Of a DNA stretch of 64,000 nucleotides, positions 8,175-41,866 are shown piece after piece. Within the stretch, counting starts at the first letter, position 1, and each line of letters starts with the position of its first letter. Made by a program: the position numbers and the translations under genes. This DNA comes from Halobacteriales archaeon QS_1_69_70. Its GTDB lineage: Archaea; Halobacteriota; Halobacteria; Halobacteriales; Haloarculaceae. The notes under the pieces were generated by a model that saw only the letters and a program-made list of their open reading frames with translations, did no database searches and was not told where the DNA came from. The DNA lies in contig PXRI01000013.1 of the NCBI GenBank assembly GCA_003021005.1, positions 62,001 to 126,000 on the forward strand, in the 5' to 3' direction.

Positions 8175-8897
8175 TCAGCTGACCACGTCTAGGACCTGCC
8201 GGAGGTCCATCCGACCGAGCACGACGGCGTCGATGCGGTCGTGGGCGACCACGTCGGCGGCGATCTCCCGGGCGGTCGCCTCGAGGTCGGGGTCGTCGAC
8301 CATGTTCACCAGCGGCCGGACCGTCGCCCCGTCCGGCACGCCCTTCAGGCCGCCCTCGGGATGGGTGAGGACCGTCGCGACGTGCCTGGGGCGGATCTCC
8401 TCGCCGGACTCCAGGGTCGTGATCGCGGCGACCCGCTCGGGCCGGTGGACGCGGTCGCCTTCGAGCGGTTCCCCGACGGCCCTGGCGCTCGCCACGGGGA
8501 CGGCCAGGCTCGTCGCGTCCGGAACTTGCGGCTCGTCGTCGGCCGGCGCCTTGAGCCAGCGGCCGCGTGCGCCGTCGGCCTTCACGAGGATGGGGGCGTC
8601 GGTCGCGTCGGCCATCGCGTCGACCGTCTCGATGTCGTAGCCGAGATACCGGTCGCGGTCGCCGTCCCGGCCGGGCACCAGCCCCAGCGGCCACGTCTCG
8701 TTCGCCCGGAGGACGGAACCCGGGTCCTCGGTGACGACGTGGCGCGCCACGTGGCCCTCGTACGGGGGAATCCGGACCGTCGCGGTCAGGACCGCGCGGT
8801 CGAGGCCGGCCGCCAGCGCGTACAGCGTCGACTTCTTCCCGCCGGCGCCGACGACGGCAACGACTCCATCGGGAGCGAACGCTTCGGCCGGTTCCAT
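8175..8897 (-). CDS. yqeC: YqeC-family selenium/molybdenum cofactor protein
   Basis: 240 residues from the ATG at 8897 (MEPAEAFAPDGVVAVVGAGGKKST). The P-loop-like VVGAGGKKSTLYALA at the N-terminus, ILVKADGARGRWLKAP and the C-terminal VVLGRMD match the YqeC family, which is linked genomically to selenium-dependent molybdenum hydroxylases. A biochemical role is not settled. Convergent with the SDR gene and close to mobA, so the three probably serve a molybdoenzyme encoded elsewhere. Confidence 0.85.
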   Translation of the reverse strand: MEPAEAFAPDGVVAVVGAGGKKSTLYALAAGLDRAVLTATVRIPPYEGHVARHVVTEDPGSVLRANETWPLGLVPGRDGDRDRYLGYDIETVDAMADATDAPILVKADGARGRWLKAPADDEPQVPDATSLAVPVASARAVGEPLEGDRVHRPERVAAITTLESGEEIRPRHVATVLTHPEGGLKGVPDGATVRPLVNMVDDPDLEATAREIAADVVAHDRIDAVVLGRMDLRQVLDVVS

Positions 8898-8978
8898 ACC
8901 GCGTCGGTCGGTGCGGGCGGACAAAACGGTGCTGGCAGATGACGTGCCTATTTGTGGCTGCCGGGCGCCGGAGGCGAC

Positions 8979-9437
8979 ATGGTCGTCGACACCGCCGTCT
9001 ACACCGTGCACACCGCGTTCGCGGCCCTGTGGGCCGGAAGCGTGCTGTTCGTCGTGGTCGCCGTCCAGCCGCTGGCGATGGCGGGTGACGTCGCGCCGGC
9101 CGCCTACGGCCGCATCGTCTCGACGCTCCGGCAGGTGACACGGGCCAGCGCTCTCCTCCTGTTCCTCAGCGGCGGGCACATGGCAGCCACCGGCTACACG
9201 GTCGAGTCGCTCACGGGTTCGTCAACGGGGCATCTCGTCCTGACGATGCTGGGTCTGTGGCTCGCCTTGGCTGCAACCGTCGAGGCGGGTAGCGCCAGGG
9301 CGCTCCGGGGTGTCGAGCAGCGGAAGATCCGGGAGCCGGCCCGGGAGGCCCGACCGTTCCTCCTTGCGGCCGCCGTCGTCGCCGTCGCGCTGTTTGTCGT
9401 CGCCGGCCTGCTCGGTCGACCACCGGCGGGGCTCTGA
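8979..9437 (+). CDS. Four-span membrane protein (CopD-like)
   Basis: 152 residues from the ATG at 8979. Four hydrophobic segments are visible (AVYTVHTAFAALWAGSVLFV, ASALLLFLSGGHMAATGY, HLVLTMLGLWLALAATVEAG, PFLLAAAVVAVALFVVAGLL). His residues in spans 1 and 2 (VHTAF, GGHMA) are reminiscent of CopD/DUF2269-type integral membrane proteins, but this is a weak resemblance. The track's start at 8952 precedes a TATA-like CCTATTTG and is rejected. Confidence 0.65.
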   Translation: MVVDTAVYTVHTAFAALWAGSVLFVVVAVQPLAMAGDVAPAAYGRIVSTLRQVTRASALLLFLSGGHMAATGYTVESLTGSSTGHLVLTMLGLWLALAATVEAGSARALRGVEQRKIREPAREARPFLLAAAVVAVALFVVAGLLGRPPAGL

Positions 9438-9508
9438 ATCACGACGGCCCGCCCGCTCGCCGGCTGGCACCGACCCTGGGGAGGCCGGGGGACACCACAG
9501 CGCGGCCG

Positions 9509-10279
9509 TCAGGGGATGACGACGTCGTTGCGGAGCGTGCCGACGCCCTCTACGGTGACCTCGACGGTATCGCCGTCCGACAGCGGGCCGACACCCGCTG
9601 GCGTTCCGGTCGAGATGACGTCACCGGCCTCCAGCGTCATGTAGCGCGTGGTCTCGGCGATCAGTTCGGGGACAGAGAAGATGAACTGGTCGCGGCCGGA
9701 GTCCTGCCGGAGTTCACCGTTGACGTGGCACCGGACCGCGGCGTCCTCGGGGACCGCCTCGGCGGCGGCGACGACCGGGCCGATCGGCGCGGCGGCGTCG
9801 AAGGCCTTCCCGCGGACCCAGTTGGTCTCGACGGCCTGGTCGTCGCGGTTCGAGAGGTCGTTGACGCAGGTGTAGCCCGTGACGAGTCCGGCGGCCTCGG
9901 CGGCGTCGATGTCCCGACAGCGCTCGCCGATCACGACGCCGAGTTCCGCCTCGAAGTCCAGCCGTTCCTTCCCCGCCGGTAGCTCCACGGTCTCGCGGTG
10001 GCTCGCGACGGTGTTCGGTGGCTTCAGGAACAACAGCGGCCGGTCGGGGACCGCCTTGCCCTGCTCGTCGGCGTGGTCGGCGTAGTTCAGTCCGACGCAG
10101 ACGATCTTCGAGGGTTCGCAGGGCGGCAGGATCTCGACGTCGGCCGCCGAGTGGAACTCCGGTGTGACGGACAATCGGCGGCCACCACCCGGGAAGGCTC
10201 GTATCTCGGCGTCGGATTCGCCTGTCCACTCGCCCCGGCGCACGTCGCCGGCCGGGTCCCGGAACCGTACAAGCTTCAT
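9509..10279 (-). CDS. Fumarylacetoacetate hydrolase family protein
   Basis: 256 residues from the ATG at 10279. The FAH fold is marked by KIVCVGLNYADHADE, PLLFLKPPNTVASH, the metal-binding LDFEAELGVVIG, CVNDLSNRDDQ and GDVISTGTPAGVGPL. The family hydrolyses or decarboxylates acyl-pyruvates with Mg2+. Without pathway neighbours the substrate is open; acylpyruvase or 2-hydroxyhepta-2,4-diene-1,7-dioate isomerase type activity is plausible. The TATA box at 10301-10308 fixes this start against the longer ORF. Confidence 0.9.
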   Translation of the reverse strand: MKLVRFRDPAGDVRRGEWTGESDAEIRAFPGGGRRLSVTPEFHSAADVEILPPCEPSKIVCVGLNYADHADEQGKAVPDRPLLFLKPPNTVASHRETVELPAGKERLDFEAELGVVIGERCRDIDAAEAAGLVTGYTCVNDLSNRDDQAVETNWVRGKAFDAAAPIGPVVAAAEAVPEDAAVRCHVNGELRQDSGRDQFIFSVPELIAETTRYMTLEAGDVISTGTPAGVGPLSDGDTVEVTVEGVGTLRNDVVIP

Positions 10280-10300
10280 ACCGGGCCGTCGTCCGGTCGG

Positions 10301-10308
10301 TTTATAAG
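10301..10308 (-). promoter_or_regulatory. TATA box of the FAH-family gene
   Basis: The minus strand reads CTTATAAA here, 22-29 bases before the ATG at 10279, giving a leaderless transcript. Confidence 0.65.
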
Positions 10309-10383
10309 GGTTCGTCGTCGGTGGACCCCGATCCCTCGTTCGGGTGGCCGTCGAACTGTTGGGGCCTGCCAGTCGGCGGGTCC

Positions 10384-10809
10384 TCACAGCGGCTTCCGCA
10401 TCTCCCGGTGGGGGATGCCGGCCTCGTCGAACGCCTCGCTCGTCACCTCGTAGCCCAATCCCTCGTAGAACGCCACGACCGGGACCTGGGCGTGGAGGAA
10501 CACCGCCTCGTACCCCTCCTCGGCGGCGTGGGTCTCGACGGCGGCCATCAACTCCCGCCCCAGCCCGCGGCCCCGTTCCGACGGGAGGACGGCGACGCGC
10601 TCGACCTTGGCCCGCGCCGGATCGTACTCCCGGAGCCGCACGGCGCCGACGGCCTGTCCGCCGTCGCAGGCGACGAAGTGGGTGGCCGCGTCGTCCCGGC
10701 CGTCGAGTTCGCGGTGGGCCGGCACGCCCTGCTCGTCGACGAAGACGGATCGGCGGACCGACAGCGCCGCCTCGACTGCCGCCTCATCGTCGGCCCGCCG
10801 GACCTCCAT
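10384..10809 (-). CDS. GNAT-family N-acetyltransferase
   Basis: 141 residues with the acetyl-CoA loop RGRGLGRELMAAVE (motif A), VERVAVLPSE before it and FYEGLGYEV (motif B). SVFVDEQGVPAHRELDG near the N-terminus is typical of the ElaA/YjcF-like GNAT branch. The acceptor cannot be predicted. Monocistronic by appearance. Confidence 0.88.
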   Translation of the reverse strand: MEVRRADDEAAVEAALSVRRSVFVDEQGVPAHRELDGRDDAATHFVACDGGQAVGAVRLREYDPARAKVERVAVLPSERGRGLGRELMAAVETHAAEEGYEAVFLHAQVPVVAFYEGLGYEVTSEAFDEAGIPHREMRKPL

Positions 10810-10917
10810 GCCCGCTCGTAGGTCGGGCGGGCCCCATAACTCGCGCGGTCACGGCGGCCCGCCACCGGACGGGCCGCCCCCGCCGTCCGACCGGCGCTGC
10901 CACCCACGCTTAATACG

Positions 10918-10936
10918 CCGACGCGAGTAGCGTCGG
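10918..10936. promoter_or_regulatory. Dyad CCGACGC-N5-GCGTCGG at the UPF0173 promoter
   Basis: A perfect 7-base inverted repeat sits between the TATA-like CTTAATAC (10909-10916) and the ATG at 10942, covering the expected transcription start. It could be an operator or the first hairpin of the mRNA. Confidence 0.4.
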
Positions 10937-10941
10937 GTGCT

Positions 10942-11661
10942 ATGGAGCTAACCTGGCACGGTCACTCGACGTGGCACGTCTCCGTCGACGGGACGGACCT
11001 GCTCGTCGACCCGTTCTTCGATAATCCGAAGACGGACCTCGACCCCGACGCACTGGACCCCGACTACGTGTGTCTGACGCACGGCCACGCCGACCACGTC
11101 GGCGACGCCCACCGGTACAGCGACGCGACGCTCGTGGCGGTGCCGGAACTGGTCGGCTACTGCACCGACAACTTCGGCTTCGCGGACGCCGTCGGCGGGA
11201 TGGGGATGAACGTCGGCGGCACCGTCGAGTGCGGCGACGCCTGGGTGACGATGACACAGGCGGCCCACACCAACGGCATCGAGACCGACTACGGCGCCTC
11301 CGCGGGCGTCCCGGCGGGCTTCGTCGTGACGGACGAAGCGCCCACACGGGAACCCGCCCCGGACTGTGGGTCGTTCTACCACGCCGGCGACACCAGCCTC
11401 ATGACCGAGATGCGGGACGTCATCGGGCCGTTCTTAGAGCCGGACGTCGCCGCGCTGCCGGCCGGCGACCACTTCACGATGGGACCGGCCCAGGCCCCCA
11501 TCGCGGCCGACTGGCTCGACGCCGACCGGGTCTGTCCGATGCACTACGACACGTTCCCGCCCATCGAGATGGACCCCGCCGAGTTCGAGCGCGAACTCGA
11601 GGCCGCCGGCGCCGACGCGGCGCCGGTCGTCCTCGAGGGCGACGAGACCATCCAGCTCTGA
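10942..11661 (+). CDS. Metallo-beta-lactamase fold hydrolase, UPF0173 family
   Basis: 239 residues. It has the start WHGHSTWHV, the metal motif [12 protein letters not shown] (HxHxDH), [13 protein letters not shown] and the C-terminal [10 protein letters not shown] with the last His ligand. UPF0173 proteins are widely conserved metal-dependent hydrolases related to UlaG lactonases, with the substrate unknown in archaea. A single gene behind its own promoter. Confidence 0.92.
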
Positions 11662-11700
11662 GGAGTCGGCCCCGACTCCGGTGACGCACGGGCAGGCTAC

Positions 11701-11708
11701 CTTTTTAC
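11701..11708 (+). promoter_or_regulatory. TATA box of the OsmC-family gene
   Basis: CTTTTTAC is 26-33 bases before the ATG at 11734, predicting a leaderless or near-leaderless mRNA. Confidence 0.5.
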
Positions 11709-11733
11709 GGCCGCCGCGAGAAGCGCGAGTGCA

Positions 11734-12132
11734 ATGGCCGACATCGAGACCACCACCGTCAACGAGGCGAAGTTCCACGCGCTGAGCCGTGCCGGCGACT
11801 TCGAGTTGAGCGTCGACGCGTCCGGCGAGGAAGGCCCGACGCCGAACCAGGTACTCGTCGCCGACTACGCCTCCTGCTTCACGTTCGCGTGCCGGGCCGG
11901 CGCCCAGCGGGAGATGGACGTCGAGCTGGGCGAGGTGGAAACGACCGCCGAGGCCGACCTGAACGACGACGACGACCTCACGTCGATCAGCTTCGAGATG
12001 CACGTCGAGGCCGACCTCGACGACGGGGAGGTCGACGAGTTGCTCGACCTCGGCGAGGACATCTGCCACGTTCGGGACTCCGTCAAGGAGTCGCTGCACG
12101 CGGACGTCGACGTGACGACGGACGCGTTCTGA
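11734..12132 (+). CDS. OsmC/Ohr-family protein
   Basis: 132 residues. The C-terminal VADYASCFTFACRAGAQRE matches the OsmC region carrying the first peroxidatic Cys. The second family Cys is in EDICHVRDSVKES near the C-terminus. These proteins reduce organic hydroperoxides using thiols. The high Asp/Glu content of the middle is a halophilic trait. Confidence 0.88.
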   Translation: MADIETTTVNEAKFHALSRAGDFELSVDASGEEGPTPNQVLVADYASCFTFACRAGAQREMDVELGEVETTAEADLNDDDDLTSISFEMHVEADLDDGEVDELLDLGEDICHVRDSVKESLHADVDVTTDAF

Positions 12133-12319
12133 GGCGGTCGTCACCGATAGCCGCCGACGGCGCTCCGACACCTCGTCGGATGCCGGGCCCCACGGCGAGT
12201 AGCCGTCATCGATGCCACGCGGTACGGGCCAACAGCAGGTCAAGCCGCCGGCCAAAGCGGGCGCCTGACCGGGCCGGCGGCCGCCACACCGGGAAGCGCC
12301 TTAGGGCCATCCCCGCCCC

Positions 12320-23153: not shown

Positions 23154-24007
23154 TCATTCCGATCGCGTTCGGAAGTACGCCCGCGTCCGTCGCTTGCCGT
23201 CGACGACGAACCGGAGCCGATCCAGAAGCGTCTCGTTCCGCAATGTGGCACTGCTGGCGGGCTCGAACACTATGCGGTCGCCCGCGGGCCGGCAGCGCCC
23301 GCGGAAGAGCCGTTGCCGGAGCCGGTCCAGCCCCGGCGTGTGCCAGTGACAGAGGAGACAGGCCGGCTGGCCGGCCTCGACCGCCACCGGGACGTCGAGT
23401 CGTGCCGCGTCTTCGTCGACCTCGAGATCGGGGACGGTTCGGGTGGTCGGCCAGCCGTCGTCGTCGACGACGGTGAACGCGAGTCGGTCGTACCCGGCCG
23501 CTTCGTCGGCGTCGACCCCCTGTGACGGCCACGCGGGCATCGACCCCGCGTCCGCGCCGACCGGTTCGGCCGCCGACGGGTCGACCTCGACGACGATCCG
23601 GAGTGTGTACACCCCATCAGGAACCGGCCGAGGCGGGACTCCAGCATGTCGGCCGTCTTCGAGAAGCCCTCGGTCTTCGGGGAGTCAGGTTCGGCGCCGA
23701 GGAGGTCGCCGACGTACTCGGCGTTGGCCTCGAGGTAGTCGTCCCGGACGGTGGCGCGGCCGCGGAGCAGGAACGGGTCGTCGGCCCCGTAGAACAAAAG
23801 CGAGACCCTCGGGTGCTCGCGGACGGCCTCGACCGTCCCGGAGAAGGCGGGCGGCGACGTGACGACGACCGTGCCCCGGTCGGGGTCGTAGAACGGGCTG
23901 AGTGGGAAGGTCTGCGGGCGGTCGTCGGTCGCGGTGGCGACCTCGACGGCCGCCGAGTCGTGGACGGCCCGTCGACGCTGCTCCGGGTCGGGCGAGTCGT
24001 CGGACAC
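23154..24007 (-). pseudogene. PPOX-class (FMN split-barrel) protein, frameshifted
   Basis: Two overlapping frames make one protein. The N-terminal frame (from about 24007, a GTG) reads SAAVEVATATDDRPQTFPLSPFYDPDRG..VVVTSPPAFSGTVEAVREHPRVSLLFYG and ends ..LESRLGRFLMG. The second frame then continues VYTLRIVVEVDPSAAEP to a stop at 23154. The switch falls in a CCCC run at 23612-23615, as expected for loss of one base. The C-terminal part includes ACLLCHWHTPGLDRLRQRLFRG, shared by haloarchaeal pyridoxamine-oxidase-like proteins. Either a decayed gene or an assembly error. Confidence 0.75.
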
Positions 24008-34660: not shown

Positions 34661-35614
34661 ATGGACGTCGAACGCGCGAGCGACCGCTCCGAGGCGGTCC
34701 TCAGTGAGATCCTGGAGGCGGTGATAGTCGACCGGGGGTTCCTCGAGACGGTCCTCACGGGAATCCTCGCAGAGGGCCACGTGCTGCTGGAGGACGTGCC
34801 CGGAACGGGGAAGACGCTCACGGCGCGGAGCCTCGCGACCGCGCTGGGACTGGCGTTCAACCGGATACAGTTCACGCCGGACCTGTTGCCCGCCGACGTG
34901 ACGGGGTCGCACATCTACGACGAGGGGACCGGCGAGTTCAGGTTCCGGGAGGGACCGATCTTCTCGAACGTCGTGCTGGCCGACGAGATCAACCGCGCGC
35001 CGCCGAAGACCCAGGCCGCGCTCCTGGAGGCGATGGAGGAAAAACAGGTGTCGGTGGAGGGCGAAACCCGGTCGCTTCCCTCCCCGTTTGTCGTCATCGC
35101 GACGCAGAACCCCGTCGAACAGGAGGGAACCTTCGAGTTGCCGGAGGCCCAGCGGGACCGGTTCGTCGTCAAGACGAAGATGGGCTACCCCGACTGGGAC
35201 GGGGAGTTCGAGTTGCTGGAGCGCCGTGCCGGCCGCGCCGACCGGACGCCGACGGTCGACGGCGTCATCGACGGCGCGACCCTCGAGGAGATGCAGTCCG
35301 TCGTCGAGGACGTCACCGTCGCGGAGGAACTCATGGCCTACATGGTCGACGTCTGCCGGGCGACGCGGGCCCACGACGCCTCGGCGGTCGGCGTCTCCCC
35401 ACGAGGCCTCCAGCGTCTCTACGAGGCCGCACGGGCACGGGCCGCGATCGCCGGCTCCGGGTTCGTCGTCCCCGAACACGTCACCGCCGTGGCGGAACCG
35501 GTCCTCAACCACCGCATCGTGGTACGGACGGACGCCTCGGTTCGCGGCGTCTCGAAGCGGGACGTCGTCGAGGACGTCATCGAGGGCCACGAGATCCCGG
35601 GCGTCCTGAACTGA
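34661..35614 (+). CDS. MoxR-family AAA+ ATPase (module 1)
   Basis: 317 residues. Walker A EDVPGTGKTLTAR, Walker B NVVLADEINRAPPKTQAALLEAM, sensor 1 VIATQNPVEQEGTFELPEAQRDRF and the C-terminal lid are intact. MoxR proteins act as chaperones that insert cofactors or remodel complexes with DUF58/VWA partners. Here it converges on the DUF58-transglutaminase operon, ending 97 bases from the last gene of that operon. Confidence 0.93.
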   Translation: MDVERASDRSEAVLSEILEAVIVDRGFLETVLTGILAEGHVLLEDVPGTGKTLTARSLATALGLAFNRIQFTPDLLPADVTGSHIYDEGTGEFRFREGPIFSNVVLADEINRAPPKTQAALLEAMEEKQVSVEGETRSLPSPFVVIATQNPVEQEGTFELPEAQRDRFVVKTKMGYPDWDGEFELLERRAGRADRTPTVDGVIDGATLEEMQSVVEDVTVAEELMAYMVDVCRATRAHDASAVGVSPRGLQRLYEAARARAAIAGSGFVVPEHVTAVAEPVLNHRIVVRTDASVRGVSKRDVVEDVIEGHEIPGVLN

Positions 35615-35710: not shown

Positions 35711-37240
35711 TTACCCCGGCGCCGCGGACGTCACGAGGAGGACGCCGACCAGCGCTGCGACGGCAGCGGCGGCGGTCCCGCCGGGGTCGAGCGTTGCGGT
35801 CACGAGCACCGCCCCGTACACCGACGCGACGCTACAACCGGCGACGAGCAGTGCCGTTCCGACGTGGAGGAACTCCAGCCGGCGGTTCCCGCGCCGGAGT
35901 TCGAGCCGGAGCCGCTGGCCGTAGGTGCCGACGTCCCAGAGGACGATCGCGGCCCCGACGACCCCGAACAGGAGCACGGACCGGCCGACGAGTTCGCCCG
36001 CGACTACCGATGCGCCGACGAGCCCACCGGCGGCGAGCACGACGCCGGCCGTCCGCGTCGGAAGCACGGCCAGATACCCCAGGAGACACGCGAGGAGCAC
36101 GAGGAACGTGACCGCGAGACAGGCGACCGTGAGGATGCCGACCGCCATCGGGAGCGCGCCGAACTCCGCCACGAGCGACTCGAGGACCTCCGTTTCGGTC
36201 TCGGCGTCGTAGCGCCCGTAGAGCGCATAGAGGACGCCGATGCTTCCGGTCGGCCCGCCGAAGAGCAAGAGCCCGACCGCCAGCGCGCCGCCGGTCCCGT
36301 GGGCGCCCAGTCGGAGGAGCCAGCGCACCGACCCGGTTCGGAGCCGTCTGAGGACCGACACGAGGCAGACGAGCCCCGTCGAGACCCCGATGGCGCCGAG
36401 CAACGTGATCCGCAGCGCCCCGGCTGTCGCGATAGCGCCGACCGCCAACGGGACGGCCCCCGGCATCGAACGAACCGCCGTCGCCCACACCGATGGGACG
36501 ACGAACGTCGCCACGGCACCGACGCCGGCGAGGGCCGCCCCGGCGTACAGCAGGCCCCGCTGGAGCCGTTCGAGCCGGTCGCGGACCTCGGCCCGCCGTT
36601 CCCGGTTCACGAGGGCCGGGATCGGCAATCGACCGACCACCACCCCGACCGCGAGGCAGGCGAGGCCGACCAAAAGGACCAGCGACGGGAGCGCGTCGAC
36701 ACCTGTCGAGGGGAAGAGTAGTCGTTCCGCCCAGGCCGAGGCGGCCGAGGCCGGGCCTAGGAAGAGCGACACCGCAGCCAGCCCCGCCATGAGTGCCCCG
36801 CCCGTCACCGCAGAGACCGCGCCCGCCGTGACCGAAAGCGACCGGCCCGCAGCCCCCGCGAGGTCCTGGCGCAACGCGAGAGTCGTCCCCGCGCCTGCGG
36901 TAGAGACACCGAGCAGGTAGGCGAACGGCCAGGCGTGACTCGGGTAGACCGTCACGTGAAACGGGTCCGCCGGGACCAGTGCGGCCAGTACCGCCGCCCC
37001 GGTCGAGAGGAGGACGCTCACGACGAAGAGGACGCTCGAGAGAGCTATCCAGGGCGTCGTATCGCGGCTACCGATGGCGCCGGCGGCGCCGAGCACGATG
37101 CCGCTCGCCAGTGCGACGCCGGTGAGCCGATACAGCCCCGTATACCACGCCAGGACGCCGAGAGCCCCGAAGCCGAGGAGCGCCACGGTGAGTTTGCTGA
37201 GGCGGGCGGGAGCCGACCGCCGGGTCACCGGCCCCGTCAT
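35711..37240 (-). CDS. Large polytopic membrane protein of the MoxR-DUF58 module
   Basis: 509 residues with roughly 13-14 hydrophobic spans and short charged loops. No catalytic motif seen. Its start overlaps the DUF58 stop by four bases, so it is the last gene of transglutaminase-DUF7269-like-DUF58-this gene. Proteins of this shape commonly accompany haloarchaeal MoxR/DUF58 clusters and may be the membrane platform. I do not recognise a numbered family. Confidence 0.75.
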   Translation of the reverse strand: MTGPVTRRSAPARLSKLTVALLGFGALGVLAWYTGLYRLTGVALASGIVLGAAGAIGSRDTTPWIALSSVLFVVSVLLSTGAAVLAALVPADPFHVTVYPSHAWPFAYLLGVSTAGAGTTLALRQDLAGAAGRSLSVTAGAVSAVTGGALMAGLAAVSLFLGPASAASAWAERLLFPSTGVDALPSLVLLVGLACLAVGVVVGRLPIPALVNRERRAEVRDRLERLQRGLLYAGAALAGVGAVATFVVPSVWATAVRSMPGAVPLAVGAIATAGALRITLLGAIGVSTGLVCLVSVLRRLRTGSVRWLLRLGAHGTGGALAVGLLLFGGPTGSIGVLYALYGRYDAETETEVLESLVAEFGALPMAVGILTVACLAVTFLVLLACLLGYLAVLPTRTAGVVLAAGGLVGASVVAGELVGRSVLLFGVVGAAIVLWDVGTYGQRLRLELRRGNRRLEFLHVGTALLVAGCSVASVYGAVLVTATLDPGGTAAAAVAALVGVLLVTSAAPG

Positions 37241-38517
37241 CGGGTCGTCCCCCCAGTGACGGCCGACAACGCTACCGGCAGCGGGTCCGACCGCGACCAG
37301 TCGACGACCGTCGCGCCCGCGTCCCGGAGGCGGGTGATACGCGTCTCCCGCTCGACGCCGGCGAGCCGCGACCCGGGCGAATCCCGTTCGCCGACGTCCG
37401 GCGAGACCACCGTGACCCGGTGGCCGTGGACCCGGAGATCCGTCGTGAGTTCCAGGGGTTCGTCGTCGGCCAGCGGCGTGGCGATGACCAGTTGCGTCTC
37501 GGGCTGGATCCTCGTCAGGAGCCGCTCGGCGATAGCGGTGCCGTCAGGTGGGGGTTCGACGCGGAGCCGTCCGCCGTCCCAGTCGCTCCGTCCGTCGGCC
37601 GCCCGGAGCGCCCGCCGCGTCCTGACCTGCAGATCGGAGGTGTCCGGCCGAATCCACGGGACGGCGTCGTCACTGATGGCCAGAAACCCGGTCTCGTGGC
37701 CCTCGTTCGCGAGCGACGTGACGATGGCGTCGGCGGCGTACAGACAGAGCGTCCGGCCGGACGCAGACTCCGGGCGCCGGACCGTCTCGACCTCCCGGCG
37801 ACAGTCCGCGATGACGACCACCGAGAAGCCGCCGCGTTCGCGGAAGTTGATCGTCGACAGCGTCCCGTCGCGGGCCATGCGCCGCCAGTCGATGCGGTTG
37901 ACCGGGTCGCCCGGGCGGTAGGTACGGACCGTGTGGAACTCGATGCCGCTGCCGCCGGAGTCGGAGGTGACGGCCCCCACGAGGGTCGAGGTCTCCCGGA
38001 CCGTCGGTGGCTCCTCGAGGAAGACCCGCGCCGCGAAGGAGGCGTCCCCCGCCACCTCCGGCCGCACGTCACGGTAGCTTCCGGCGGCCGTTCCGCGGAC
38101 CCGGACCCGAGGCGGTTCGAACCGGTGGGTCCCTCGCCGGGCGCGGACGGTGTAGGAAACCGTCGTCGAGCCGCCCGGGGGCAGCGGTGCCGCCCCCGAG
38201 GCGCTACCCCCGGTGACGACGAGGTCGTCCGGCAGGCCGTCGCTGAACCGTGCGTCCGGGACGGTCGTCGATCCCTCGTTTTGCACTGTCAGTTCGACCG
38301 TCACCGGGTCGTCGGGTATCGGTTCGGCGGGTGTGATCTCCCGCTCGACGGCGAGATCCGGGTTCGGAACGCCGCTGATGGCATCGAAGGCGACGAACAA
38401 CAGCGGAATCCCCGCGAGCAGTATCGTCCAGCGATCACCGATGAAGACACCGGCGACGATGACGAGGAGTGCACACGACAGCATCCCCCGGTACCGTTCG
38501 CGGGCGTGGATCGTCAC
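37237..38517 (-). CDS. DUF58 domain protein (module 1)
   Basis: 426 residues from a GTG at 38517 that overlaps the preceding stop (GTGA). Two N-terminal spans, an extracellular Ig-like segment (VTVELTVQNEGSTTVPDARF..) and the DUF58 core IEFHTVRTYRPGDPVNRIDWRRMARDG, followed by a VWA-like half (FSVVVIADCRRE). DUF58 proteins partner with MoxR ATPases; the role in archaeal envelope biology is unproven. The track's start at 38682 is read-through. Confidence 0.9.
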   Translation of the reverse strand: MTIHARERYRGMLSCALLVIVAGVFIGDRWTILLAGIPLLFVAFDAISGVPNPDLAVEREITPAEPIPDDPVTVELTVQNEGSTTVPDARFSDGLPDDLVVTGGSASGAAPLPPGGSTTVSYTVRARRGTHRFEPPRVRVRGTAAGSYRDVRPEVAGDASFAARVFLEEPPTVRETSTLVGAVTSDSGGSGIEFHTVRTYRPGDPVNRIDWRRMARDGTLSTINFRERGGFSVVVIADCRREVETVRRPESASGRTLCLYAADAIVTSLANEGHETGFLAISDDAVPWIRPDTSDLQVRTRRALRAADGRSDWDGGRLRVEPPPDGTAIAERLLTRIQPETQLVIATPLADDEPLELTTDLRVHGHRVTVVSPDVGERDSPGSRLAGVERETRITRLRDAGATVVDWSRSDPLPVALSAVTGGTTR

Positions 38518-39176
38518 GGCGCCTCCTCCGGTGCGTAGGACTCGATCGCGTCGAGGGTTCGCTCGACGGTCGTCCGGAAGGCCCGGTCGGGGTACAGCCA
38601 GGCGTACAGCCGCCACCGCAGCGTGGCGTCGGCCGCCCGTTCGTCGCCGAGGAACGCGCCGGCAACGGCGTCGTCGGTCCACCCGCCGGTCAGCACGGCC
38701 TCGCAGGCTACGGAGTCGTCACGTCTACTCCTGGTCGTTATCGTCTCTATCGCGGCCGAGCGGAGCCGCATCCGGACCGCCGCGCGTCGGTCCTCGTCGC
38801 CGGTCTCGATGACGGCCTCCAGATCGTCGTCGAACGTGCTGCCGGCGGTCGCGGCGTTCCCGCTAGGACGGATCGGCTCGGCGTCCACTCGCGTGGTCGC
38901 GGTCGCACCCTTCCAGACACTGATCGCGGTGGCCAGAAGGATGCCGCCGGCCACGACAGCGATTCCGGCGGTCCCGCGCAGTCGACGGTCGAGGGCCTCG
39001 GCGTCGACGAGTCGGCCGACCGTTGCGGGCCGGGCAAGCAACGCCGCCGCCACGAGCAGGACCGCCAGTCCGGTAAGGAGCACCGATAGGTACGCCCACC
39101 GTCGCACCCGGGGCGGTATTCGGCTGACAGCGCCACCCAGGGCGTCCCGTACACGGGGCAGACCGGTCCGTATCAT
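38514..39176 (-). CDS. Two-span membrane protein of the MoxR-DUF58 module (DUF7269-like)
   Basis: 220 residues. Two N-terminal spans (AYLSVLLTGLAVLLVAAALL, GTAGIAVVAGGILLATAISVW) and a soluble helical tail ending in a DLEAVIETGDEDRRAAVRMRLR..LDAIESY pattern. Overlaps both neighbours by four bases. It sits where haloarchaeal clusters have a DUF7269-type gene; the family name is from memory. Function unknown. Confidence 0.7.
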   Translation of the reverse strand: MIRTGLPRVRDALGGAVSRIPPRVRRWAYLSVLLTGLAVLLVAAALLARPATVGRLVDAEALDRRLRGTAGIAVVAGGILLATAISVWKGATATTRVDAEPIRPSGNAATAGSTFDDDLEAVIETGDEDRRAAVRMRLRSAAIETITTRSRRDDSVACEAVLTGGWTDDAVAGAFLGDERAADATLRWRLYAWLYPDRAFRTTVERTLDAIESYAPEEAP

Positions 39177-41866
39177 TCACCGTCGGAGCGCACGAGTTCT
39201 GCGGCGTCACGGACCGCCGCGAGCCGGGATCCGTCCGGGTCGCGGTCGCCGTACTCGACCGTCCGGAACGTCTCGAGGATGGTCTCGACCGCGTCGGCCG
39301 GCAGTCCGGCCGCGATGGCCCGGTTCGCTATCTCCCGCGGCGTTTCGGTTACGGGCCGCGTGACCGCCGCGGCGCCGAGCAGCAGCCCCCACGCGTTCCG
39401 GACGGGCCCGTCGTCGCCGTGTCCCGCTGGCTCGCGAGCGGCGGTCCGGGATGTGTCCGCCGACGAGCCGAACACGCCGGCGACGGTAGCGGCCAGCCCC
39501 CCGAGACGGTCCCGCACCGCCGTCAGCCCGGTGTAGAGCGCGGGCAGGGTGACCGCGCGGACGACCGTCGACCACGCCAGGTCTACCAGGCGACTCAGCA
39601 GGATCAGGCCGACGAGCGCCTTCGCCGCGACCGCGTGGGACGCGGACCGGAGGACCCCGAGCGGCGCACGGCCCAGCGCCTTCGCCACCGCGCCGGCGAG
39701 CAGTGCCAGAGCCAGGAGGGCGCCGCCGCCCGCCAGGAGGTTACGGAGCGGGGTGATCGTGGTCGCCACTCGCCAGTCGCCGCGGGTCGCCGCAACGGTG
39801 CTTTCGTATGCCGTCCCCGGTGAGACGGTCGCCATCCCACGGTCGTCGGTCGAGGCGACGCGCTCCCCGCCGAGGAGCACGGTCGCGTCGGACACCGGCG
39901 TGCCATCGTCGTGCTCGACGGTGACCGTCGTGGGTCGTCCCGGCAGCGGCGCCGGGCGAGCGGCCGTGGTGATGGTGATGGCTGGGAGTTCGACCGTCCG
40001 CTCGCCCGAGGCGGCGCCGCGCTCGACGGTGAGCGTCACGTTCCCGGTCTGCTCCGGGAGCCCGACGGTCGCCAGTCCCGATCGGTTCGTCCGCGCGGCC
40101 AACCGGTCGGCGACGGACACGTTACCGTCCGACACCGGATAGCCCTCGATGGTTGCGTTGAGTGTGACGTCGGTACCGGCATAGGCGTCGTTCTCCACGG
40201 CGACGTCGATGGTCGTCGGCACCGGGACGGACCGTGCCGCTATCCGCTCCGGGGCGTCCTGGCCCGCCGGCCGCTCGCCCCCGGCGTGGGCGGTCACGTT
40301 CAGCGACGCCCGGAACGGCACCGTCCCGGCGACGATGCCGGACTCGTTCGTCTCCCCGACCGGTTCGCCGTCGAACCGGATTCCGGCGCCCGGAACGGGC
40401 TCGTCGTTCGAGACGACCCTGACGCGGAGCGGCTGTCCGGGCACCGGGTCGTCGAGTAGTTCGAGCTGGACCTCGCGGTCCACTGGTCCGGGGTTCCAGC
40501 CGCCCCTGGCGTCCTGACTCGACGACGAACGCCCGGCGCTGGAACCGCCGCCACCGTCCCCCTCGCTCTCCGCATTCCCCACGCCACTGGAGGACTCGGA
40601 GCTGCCGTCCGATTCCCCTCGTGGCTCGTCGCTGTCCGCCCCGTCGCTTCCTGCCGACGCCCCCTCCTCGTCGCGGGCGGCCCTCGACGCCCTCGACTGA
40701 TTGCCATCGACGTCGGACGATCGATTGCCGTAGTCGAGGTATTGTAGCCCGGATTCGGTGTCGGTCCGCTGGCCGACGAGTGCCCGCCGGTCGCCGCCGG
40801 GCGTCGGGTCGAACGGAACCCACCCGGCCTCGGGGAAATACACCTCGACCCACGCGTGCTGGTGGACGGTTCGGACGACGAACGTCTTGTTGGTCTCGTT
40901 CGGCACGCCTGGCGTGTACCCCTTCACGTAGCGGGCCGGAACCCCCTCCGCACGGAGCATCACGGTCATCGTCGTCGCGAGAAGGGAACTGTGTGCAGCC
41001 TCCCGCTCGAAGAGCACCTCCGCGGCGGTGTCGTGCTCGACGGCCGACCGGTTCATCCGGAACTCGTAGTTCGAGCGGAACCACTGCTCGACGGCGACGG
41101 CCGTCTCGTAGGGAGAATCCGCGTCGGCGGTAACGCTCTCGGTGCGGGAAACGACCCGGTCGGGAACCGACGCTGGCAGGGCCGTGTAGCGTTCTTCGAG
41201 TTCCTCCGGGTAGTCCTCGCCGGCACCGACGGCGGGGTCGGTCTCCGGCCGGATGCTCGTGACGACGAAGGTCTCGTTCGGCGAGGCCGTCCCGTCCAGC
41301 ACGACGCCCGACGCTGGGCCGACGGCGGCGTCGGTCTCCGAAGCGCTCGAGATGCCGACGGGCCGCCACGCGGCCGGCAAGACCACCGCCGGGATCCGCA
41401 GCGTGACCTCATGTGAGAGCAGCGCCCGCGACGTGTTCGGCGGGTCGTGGCTCCAGGCGGGGGGCCGGTCGGAGCGGCGCCACCCGTCCTGGAGGTAGGT
41501 ATCGTATGCCGTGAGCCGCCAGTACGCCGGGGCCTCGGCCCGGACGGTGAAGTGGACGGCCTCCGTGCTCGTACGGTTCGGCGGCGGGTCCGCGAACCGT
41601 TCCTCGAGGTGGGTGCCCCCGGACCCGTCGGGGTCGCCGCCAATGCGTGGCTGACCGGATCCGTTGCCGGACGCGTCGGTGGCTGGGTCCCCCTCGTTTG
41701 GGCCGCTTCCGATCGTCGCGTTGGTGTCGTTGAAGTTCAAGTAGTCGACCGGGACTGATAACGCGGGAATGGCGCTCGCGAGGAGGACGACCGCGACGAG
41801 CGAGCAGATGACGATACCGACAACGCCGAATCGCCGTCCCCCGACGTCGTTCTTCTCCCCGCCCAT
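39173..41866 (-). CDS. Transglutaminase-like protein with Ser in place of catalytic Cys
   Basis: 897 residues. One N-terminal span, an extracellular beta region, then a transglutaminase core at about 270-360: VLFEREAAHSSLLATTMTVMLRAEGVPARYVKGYTPG and HQHAWVEVYFPEAGWVPFDPT. The Cys expected before the helix is Ser293 (AGT), while His336 and Asp352 remain. A Ser/Gly/Asp linker (about 390-450), several Ig-like segments (450-680), two or three spans and a DUF4129-like C-terminus follow. Probably a non-catalytic peptide- or polymer-binding protein on the cell surface. First gene of its operon. Confidence 0.88.
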   Translation of the reverse strand: MGGEKNDVGGRRFGVVGIVICSLVAVVLLASAIPALSVPVDYLNFNDTNATIGSGPNEGDPATDASGNGSGQPRIGGDPDGSGGTHLEERFADPPPNRTSTEAVHFTVRAEAPAYWRLTAYDTYLQDGWRRSDRPPAWSHDPPNTSRALLSHEVTLRIPAVVLPAAWRPVGISSASETDAAVGPASGVVLDGTASPNETFVVTSIRPETDPAVGAGEDYPEELEERYTALPASVPDRVVSRTESVTADADSPYETAVAVEQWFRSNYEFRMNRSAVEHDTAAEVLFEREAAHSSLLATTMTVMLRAEGVPARYVKGYTPGVPNETNKTFVVRTVHQHAWVEVYFPEAGWVPFDPTPGGDRRALVGQRTDTESGLQYLDYGNRSSDVDGNQSRASRAARDEEGASAGSDGADSDEPRGESDGSSESSSGVGNAESEGDGGGGSSAGRSSSSQDARGGWNPGPVDREVQLELLDDPVPGQPLRVRVVSNDEPVPGAGIRFDGEPVGETNESGIVAGTVPFRASLNVTAHAGGERPAGQDAPERIAARSVPVPTTIDVAVENDAYAGTDVTLNATIEGYPVSDGNVSVADRLAARTNRSGLATVGLPEQTGNVTLTVERGAASGERTVELPAITITTAARPAPLPGRPTTVTVEHDDGTPVSDATVLLGGERVASTDDRGMATVSPGTAYESTVAATRGDWRVATTITPLRNLLAGGGALLALALLAGAVAKALGRAPLGVLRSASHAVAAKALVGLILLSRLVDLAWSTVVRAVTLPALYTGLTAVRDRLGGLAATVAGVFGSSADTSRTAAREPAGHGDDGPVRNAWGLLLGAAAVTRPVTETPREIANRAIAAGLPADAVETILETFRTVEYGDRDPDGSRLAAVRDAAELVRSDGE

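Follow-up and report, generated by a model that had tools for sequence, protein, structure and literature searches.

MoxR-DUF58 operons are widespread, their function is poorly understood, and transglutaminase (TG) activity is the natural first guess at what they do. In bacteria, MoxR (MRP), DUF58 and transglutaminase neighbourhoods such as the PFNA cluster of bifidobacteria are described in the passage of PMC6803598 that cites Wong and Houry 2012. TgpA, a membrane transglutaminase reported to be active, has its Cys-His-Asp triad intact (PMC3507681). The fold also occurs in inactive proteins, erythrocyte band 4.2 (EPB42) and FBXO21 among them, and several papain-fold families (menin, DUF2145, DUF2272, DUF3750 and APC5867) have Ser for Cys; bleomycin hydrolase and congopain remain partly active when their Cys is mutated to Ser (PMC10318531).

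We compared these systems with an operon in the window, that is, the whole stretch of 64,000 nucleotides that was analysed. Its features are as follows.

39173..41866, minus strand: head protein, ORF of 897 aa (ORF translation, Pfam)
40805..41143, minus strand: Transglut_core (PF01841), residues 242-354 of the head protein (Pfam, E 6.6e-25)
40967..40996, minus strand: active-site motif AHSSLLATTM, residues 291-300 (GYCxYFATxM in relatives)
40988..40990, minus strand: codon AGT of Ser293, at the catalytic Cys position
40856..40858, minus strand: His337, at the catalytic His position
40808..40810, minus strand: Asp353, at the catalytic Asp position
39200..39382, minus strand: DUF4129 (PF13559), residues 829-889, the part common to heads without a TG domain
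38514..39176, minus strand: DUF7269 (PF23933) protein, 220 aa (Pfam, 1.8e-24)
37237..38517, minus strand: DUF58 (PF01882) protein (Pfam); the ORF is open from 38682, and the likely start is a GTG near 38517, overlapping the end of the DUF7269 gene
35711..37240, minus strand: membrane protein, 509 aa, with no Pfam match; relatives occupy the same place in other operons
34661..35614, plus strand: MoxR-type AAA+ ATPase (AAA_3, 1.9e-64), convergent with the operon

The order of head (TG, DUF4129), DUF7269, DUF58 and 509-aa membrane protein, with a convergent MoxR, is the same in about twenty other haloarchaeal copies, so the window operon belongs to this type; in these copies MoxR is nearly always convergent and every TG head carries Cys. 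The earlier note had reported a transglutaminase-like protein with Ser at the catalytic Cys position, heading an operon with DUF58 and near MoxR, and the ORF translation and Pfam matches bear this out on both counts. It had also described the catalytic His and Asp as retained, which they are, although its numbering (336 and 352) is one residue short: residue 336 is Gln, at a position that is mostly Ala or Ser in relatives. The window encodes a real and well-supported case of a probable pseudo-transglutaminase, in an operon of a kind already known, the TG head without Cys being the new part. Full-text searches of the open-access literature (subscription papers being outside reach) returned no description of a haloarchaeal DUF58 and transglutaminase operon.

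As in the PFNA-type neighbourhood, a MoxR ATPase, a DUF58 protein and a transglutaminase-like membrane protein are found together; the haloarchaeal version differs in also having DUF7269 and one more membrane protein, in its convergent MoxR, and in its TG domain, which is optional and, in the window, without Cys. The head protein runs from an N-terminal membrane anchor through an outer transglutaminase-like domain, an acidic and Ser-containing linker, Ig-like repeats and TM segments to the C-terminal DUF4129. TgpA of Pseudomonas aeruginosa (PDB 6g49, 6g4h) is its closest solved relative in the sequence search (E 5.1e-11), and both are membrane proteins with a TG domain on the outer side. However, the Cys of TgpA lies in GFCAHYAGAM where the window has AHSSLLATTM, and TgpA_N (PF11992) scores 28.7 bits in the head protein, short of the Pfam cut-off of 30. 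This score and the single N-terminal hydrophobic segment place the head outside the TgpA family, in which TgpA_N is polytopic. A search of NCBIfam gave nothing useful.

The profile of PF01841 scores 87.9 bits in the head protein against a curated cut-off of 23, which makes the domain a member of this family. Catalytic His and Asp are present (His337, Asp353), but the catalytic Cys at the N-terminal end of the core helix is replaced by Ser293, and because of this we assign the domain to the transglutaminase fold family and not to its active enzymes. A shallow AlphaFold model of residues 222-366 (mean pLDDT 66, pTM 0.69) gives the expected helix followed by strands, whereas a longer piece reached no more than pLDDT 43. 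When the shorter model was compared with the PDB by Foldseek, TgpA came first with a weak E value of 0.03, and a TG-like protease was also among the top matches. By sequence, then, the domain is a probable pseudoenzyme with a catalytic residue missing and the fold kept, the shorter model lending weak support to the fold. EPB42 and FBXO21 likewise keep the TG/papain fold, and their loss of catalysis and non-enzymatic role would be shared by the window domain; they differ in being eukaryotic and of unrelated architecture.

How exceptional the replacement is can be seen from an alignment of homologous domains, a check of the kind that the earlier note had proposed, in which Ser stands alone. The comparison covered 135 unique domains, one of them from a Shewanella protein and the others from haloarchaeal genomes. 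Their nucleophile column contains 133 Cys, 1 Ser (the window) and 1 Gly, the His column is His in 135 of 135, and the Asp column has 128 Asp and 7 Glu. Two codon-pattern scans over 394 genomes of the order, with loosely defined flanks and jointly allowing any codon but TGN at the nucleophile position, returned the window as the only non-Cys case and five chance sequences, bearing in mind that a strongly remodelled site might escape scans that presuppose the flanking consensus and that G014, the genome with the Gly case, lies outside the 394. No second Ser-bearing sequence was found in these 394 genomes. The closest relatives found share about 55% identity at most within the domain, and the Ser form is known from one sequence. 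Nearer relatives were also sought in the family of G047, a distant genome whose copy is discussed below, where two genomes only were available and the matches were no nearer than 47%; a scan of genome contigs for relatives returned only a Shewanella TgpA-like locus, and a scan of viral contigs found none. Two variants elsewhere in the family may be mentioned. In L082, L083, L125 (same gene as L006), AYC replaces GYC and FEPTP gives Glu at the catalytic Asp position, and G138:C1:763325 and 764501 (L052) form one 1350-aa open frame with two tandem Cys-bearing transglutaminase domains.

A Ser found once in a Cys family could reflect a sequencing or assembly error, given that nearly all relatives carry Cys, which is half of what the earlier note had named as the sign of an error, and that the genome is a metagenome-assembled draft, 82% complete and in 44 contigs. 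We regard this as extremely unlikely. Measured against the consensus GYCxYFATxM, the window motif AHSSLLATTM has G, Y, C, Y and F all replaced, five residues spread over several codons, and neither of the two other reading frames yields GYCxYFA at the proper spacing from ATTM. The ORF is intact across its 897 aa, without stop or frameshift, and its third-codon GC is high throughout. The copy in G047, possibly a sister lineage, has three of the substitutions in the flanks in common with it, F to V, M to R and G to A, and yet keeps Cys in the motif AYCTYF, which suggests a stepwise history for the window motif. G047 is the nearest row to the window in the tree, with an SH-aLRT of 95, although the pairing is tentative because it joins two long branches.

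Two simpler accounts of the missing Cys were considered and ruled out. A single miscalled base, which was the error that the earlier note had in mind, does not explain a motif that is changed at five residues together and is found in no frame. A displaced Cys nearby is ruled out as well, since the only Cys of the protein, C21, is in the membrane anchor and the TG domain contains none.

We think it fairly probable that the head protein is a membrane-anchored subunit of a haloarchaeal MoxR-DUF58 operon whose outer TG-fold domain, very probably dead as a catalyst, now has a non-catalytic use, as a binding module or a spacer. The argument begins with a Transglut_core match that retains His and Asp and has Ser where all but one of 134 relatives have Cys (133 Cys and 1 Gly), which probably marks a dead enzyme kept for another job. 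The loss extends from the Cys to the conserved residues surrounding it, while His, Asp and the residues that form the fold have been kept, and so have the operon partners. The lack of any other Cys in the domain, noted above, supports this reading. The excess of changes in the TG domain and their clustering at the active site, the Cys in the syntenic copies, the heads that have no TG domain, the minority of related loci with a TG gene and a second transglutaminase of the genome that retains Cys, all described below, support the same interpretation. Judged from its sequence, the domain would have no transglutaminase activity. The suggestion in the earlier note that the operon with DUF58 and MoxR is headed by an inactive domain is well supported by this pattern of loss and retention, and its further suggestion, that the domain may be used for binding, is plausible.

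Retention of His and Asp also allows Ser293-His337-Asp353 to be read as a working serine hydrolase or acyltransferase triad, and the earlier note had mentioned weak hydrolysis by serine. Precedents exist in menin, DUF2145, DUF2272 and DUF3750 and in the active Cys-to-Ser mutants (PMC10318531), and those families resemble the window in having Ser at the nucleophile position with the other two triad residues kept. They differ in that their Ser is conserved throughout the family, whereas that of the window is one sequence in a Cys family, with no second Ser sequence among the 394 genomes scanned. Moreover, serine catalysis would be expected to retain the surroundings of the nucleophile, and here the residues packing round it (G-2, Y-1, Y+2 and F+3) have changed together with the Cys, so we consider such a triad improbable. 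We give slightly less credence still to its fullest form, in which a functioning cell-surface serine acyltransferase or hydrolase would have arisen by a natural switch from Cys to Ser the adjoining motif residues having been reshaped to suit, possibly in adaptation to an oxidising, hypersaline outside. If true, it would be a natural transglutaminase-fold enzyme changed from Cys to Ser.

The distribution of changes along the operon has a bearing on whether the pseudoenzyme is maintained or on its way out. In a leave-one-out count over the columns on which 90% of the other copies agree, the window TG domain is changed at 14 of 58 (24%), the highest value, the other 23 copies ranging from 0 to 13% with 13% and 11% next in order. 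The window DUF58 (3 of 43 columns) and DUF7269 (0 of 12) show nothing unusual, and MoxR, with 14 of 145, stands somewhat high and ranks second of 21. The TG domain has therefore changed more than its operon partners, and the raised value for MoxR suggests that the whole operon, not the TG domain alone, is a long branch. This excess of change could mean that the domain is decaying toward loss under relaxed constraint and has no binding role of its own. Such decay fits the data nearly as well as a retained module, since most related DUF58 loci have no TG gene nearby and many heads of the same operon lack the domain. In G014:C20 (L195), a close relative, another TG copy (ORF 8785-12198, GFGQYFATAM) has its catalytic Cys changed to Gly; this is the 11% copy of the count, and a search of its neighbourhood found neither DUF58 nor MoxR. 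In the tree of the other paralogue (paralogue A), the window genome (G000) has G014 as its nearest relative. The Ser and Gly losses are most likely independent because they fall in different clades of the TG tree. Against decay, the 897-aa ORF is intact with high third-codon GC, Transglut_core still scores 88 bits, and His, Asp and most core positions are retained. The changes also cluster at the active site and are not evenly spread: the window deviates at 10 of the 38 columns on which at least 93% of relatives agree, four of the ten falling at -2 to +2 of the nucleophile, and changed columns make up 4 of the 5 at -2 to +4 compared with 6 of the other 33 (Fisher p 0.012). On balance we hold decay to be unlikely, though a serious contender, and prefer a domain retained for a non-catalytic purpose.

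Heads of the same operon show that the TG domain can be dispensed with. In several genomes the operon begins with a head whose similarity to the window head (P0001) is confined to the latter's tail of Ig-like repeats, TM segments and DUF4129, and Transglut_core was absent from the five such heads examined by Pfam. The window genome itself has a second DUF4129-DUF7269-DUF58-MoxR operon on another contig (G000:C43, 8887-13535; L232), with a head of 323 aa and no TG domain. Among 109 loci encoding relatives of the window DUF58 (E up to 1e-15; related genomes and G000, the window operon left out), a TG gene lies within 7 kb at 22, a lower bound because of contig ends in draft genomes and a count in which some loci may belong to other operon types. 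From these heads and loci we conclude that the DUF4129 head protein can carry the TG domain as an outer module or do without it. The other transglutaminase of the window genome (G000:C36) carries GYCTYF, lies directly after its own MoxR and reaches the TgpA_N cut-off with 46.1 bits.

A head without the catalytic Cys and the many heads without a TG domain indicate that the core function of the operon probably lies elsewhere than in TG catalysis. Its indispensable core is probably the DUF4129 tail, the DUF58 protein and the MoxR ATPase, which would form a membrane-linked assembly, probably chaperone-like in its action. The TG domain would be an outward-facing add-on that acts, if at all, as a binding or spacer module, and cross-linking, if needed, might fall to the other transglutaminase of the genome, the paralogue that has Cys. 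The window head may be regarded as a natural variant for telling enzymatic from structural roles.

In the TG, MoxR and DUF58 trees the window operon is on long branches, apart from its genus-mates, and its base composition resembles that of its surroundings; it may derive from a lineage not yet sampled or may have evolved fast. No tRNA was found in the window. Elsewhere in it, between positions 24000 and 33000, GC drops from about 72% to 61-63%, and this segment, which may have been acquired, encodes by eye a rhodanese/metallo-beta-lactamase-type protein, a major-facilitator transporter, a methyltransferase, a cupredoxin-like protein, an HTH regulator and an ABC transporter.
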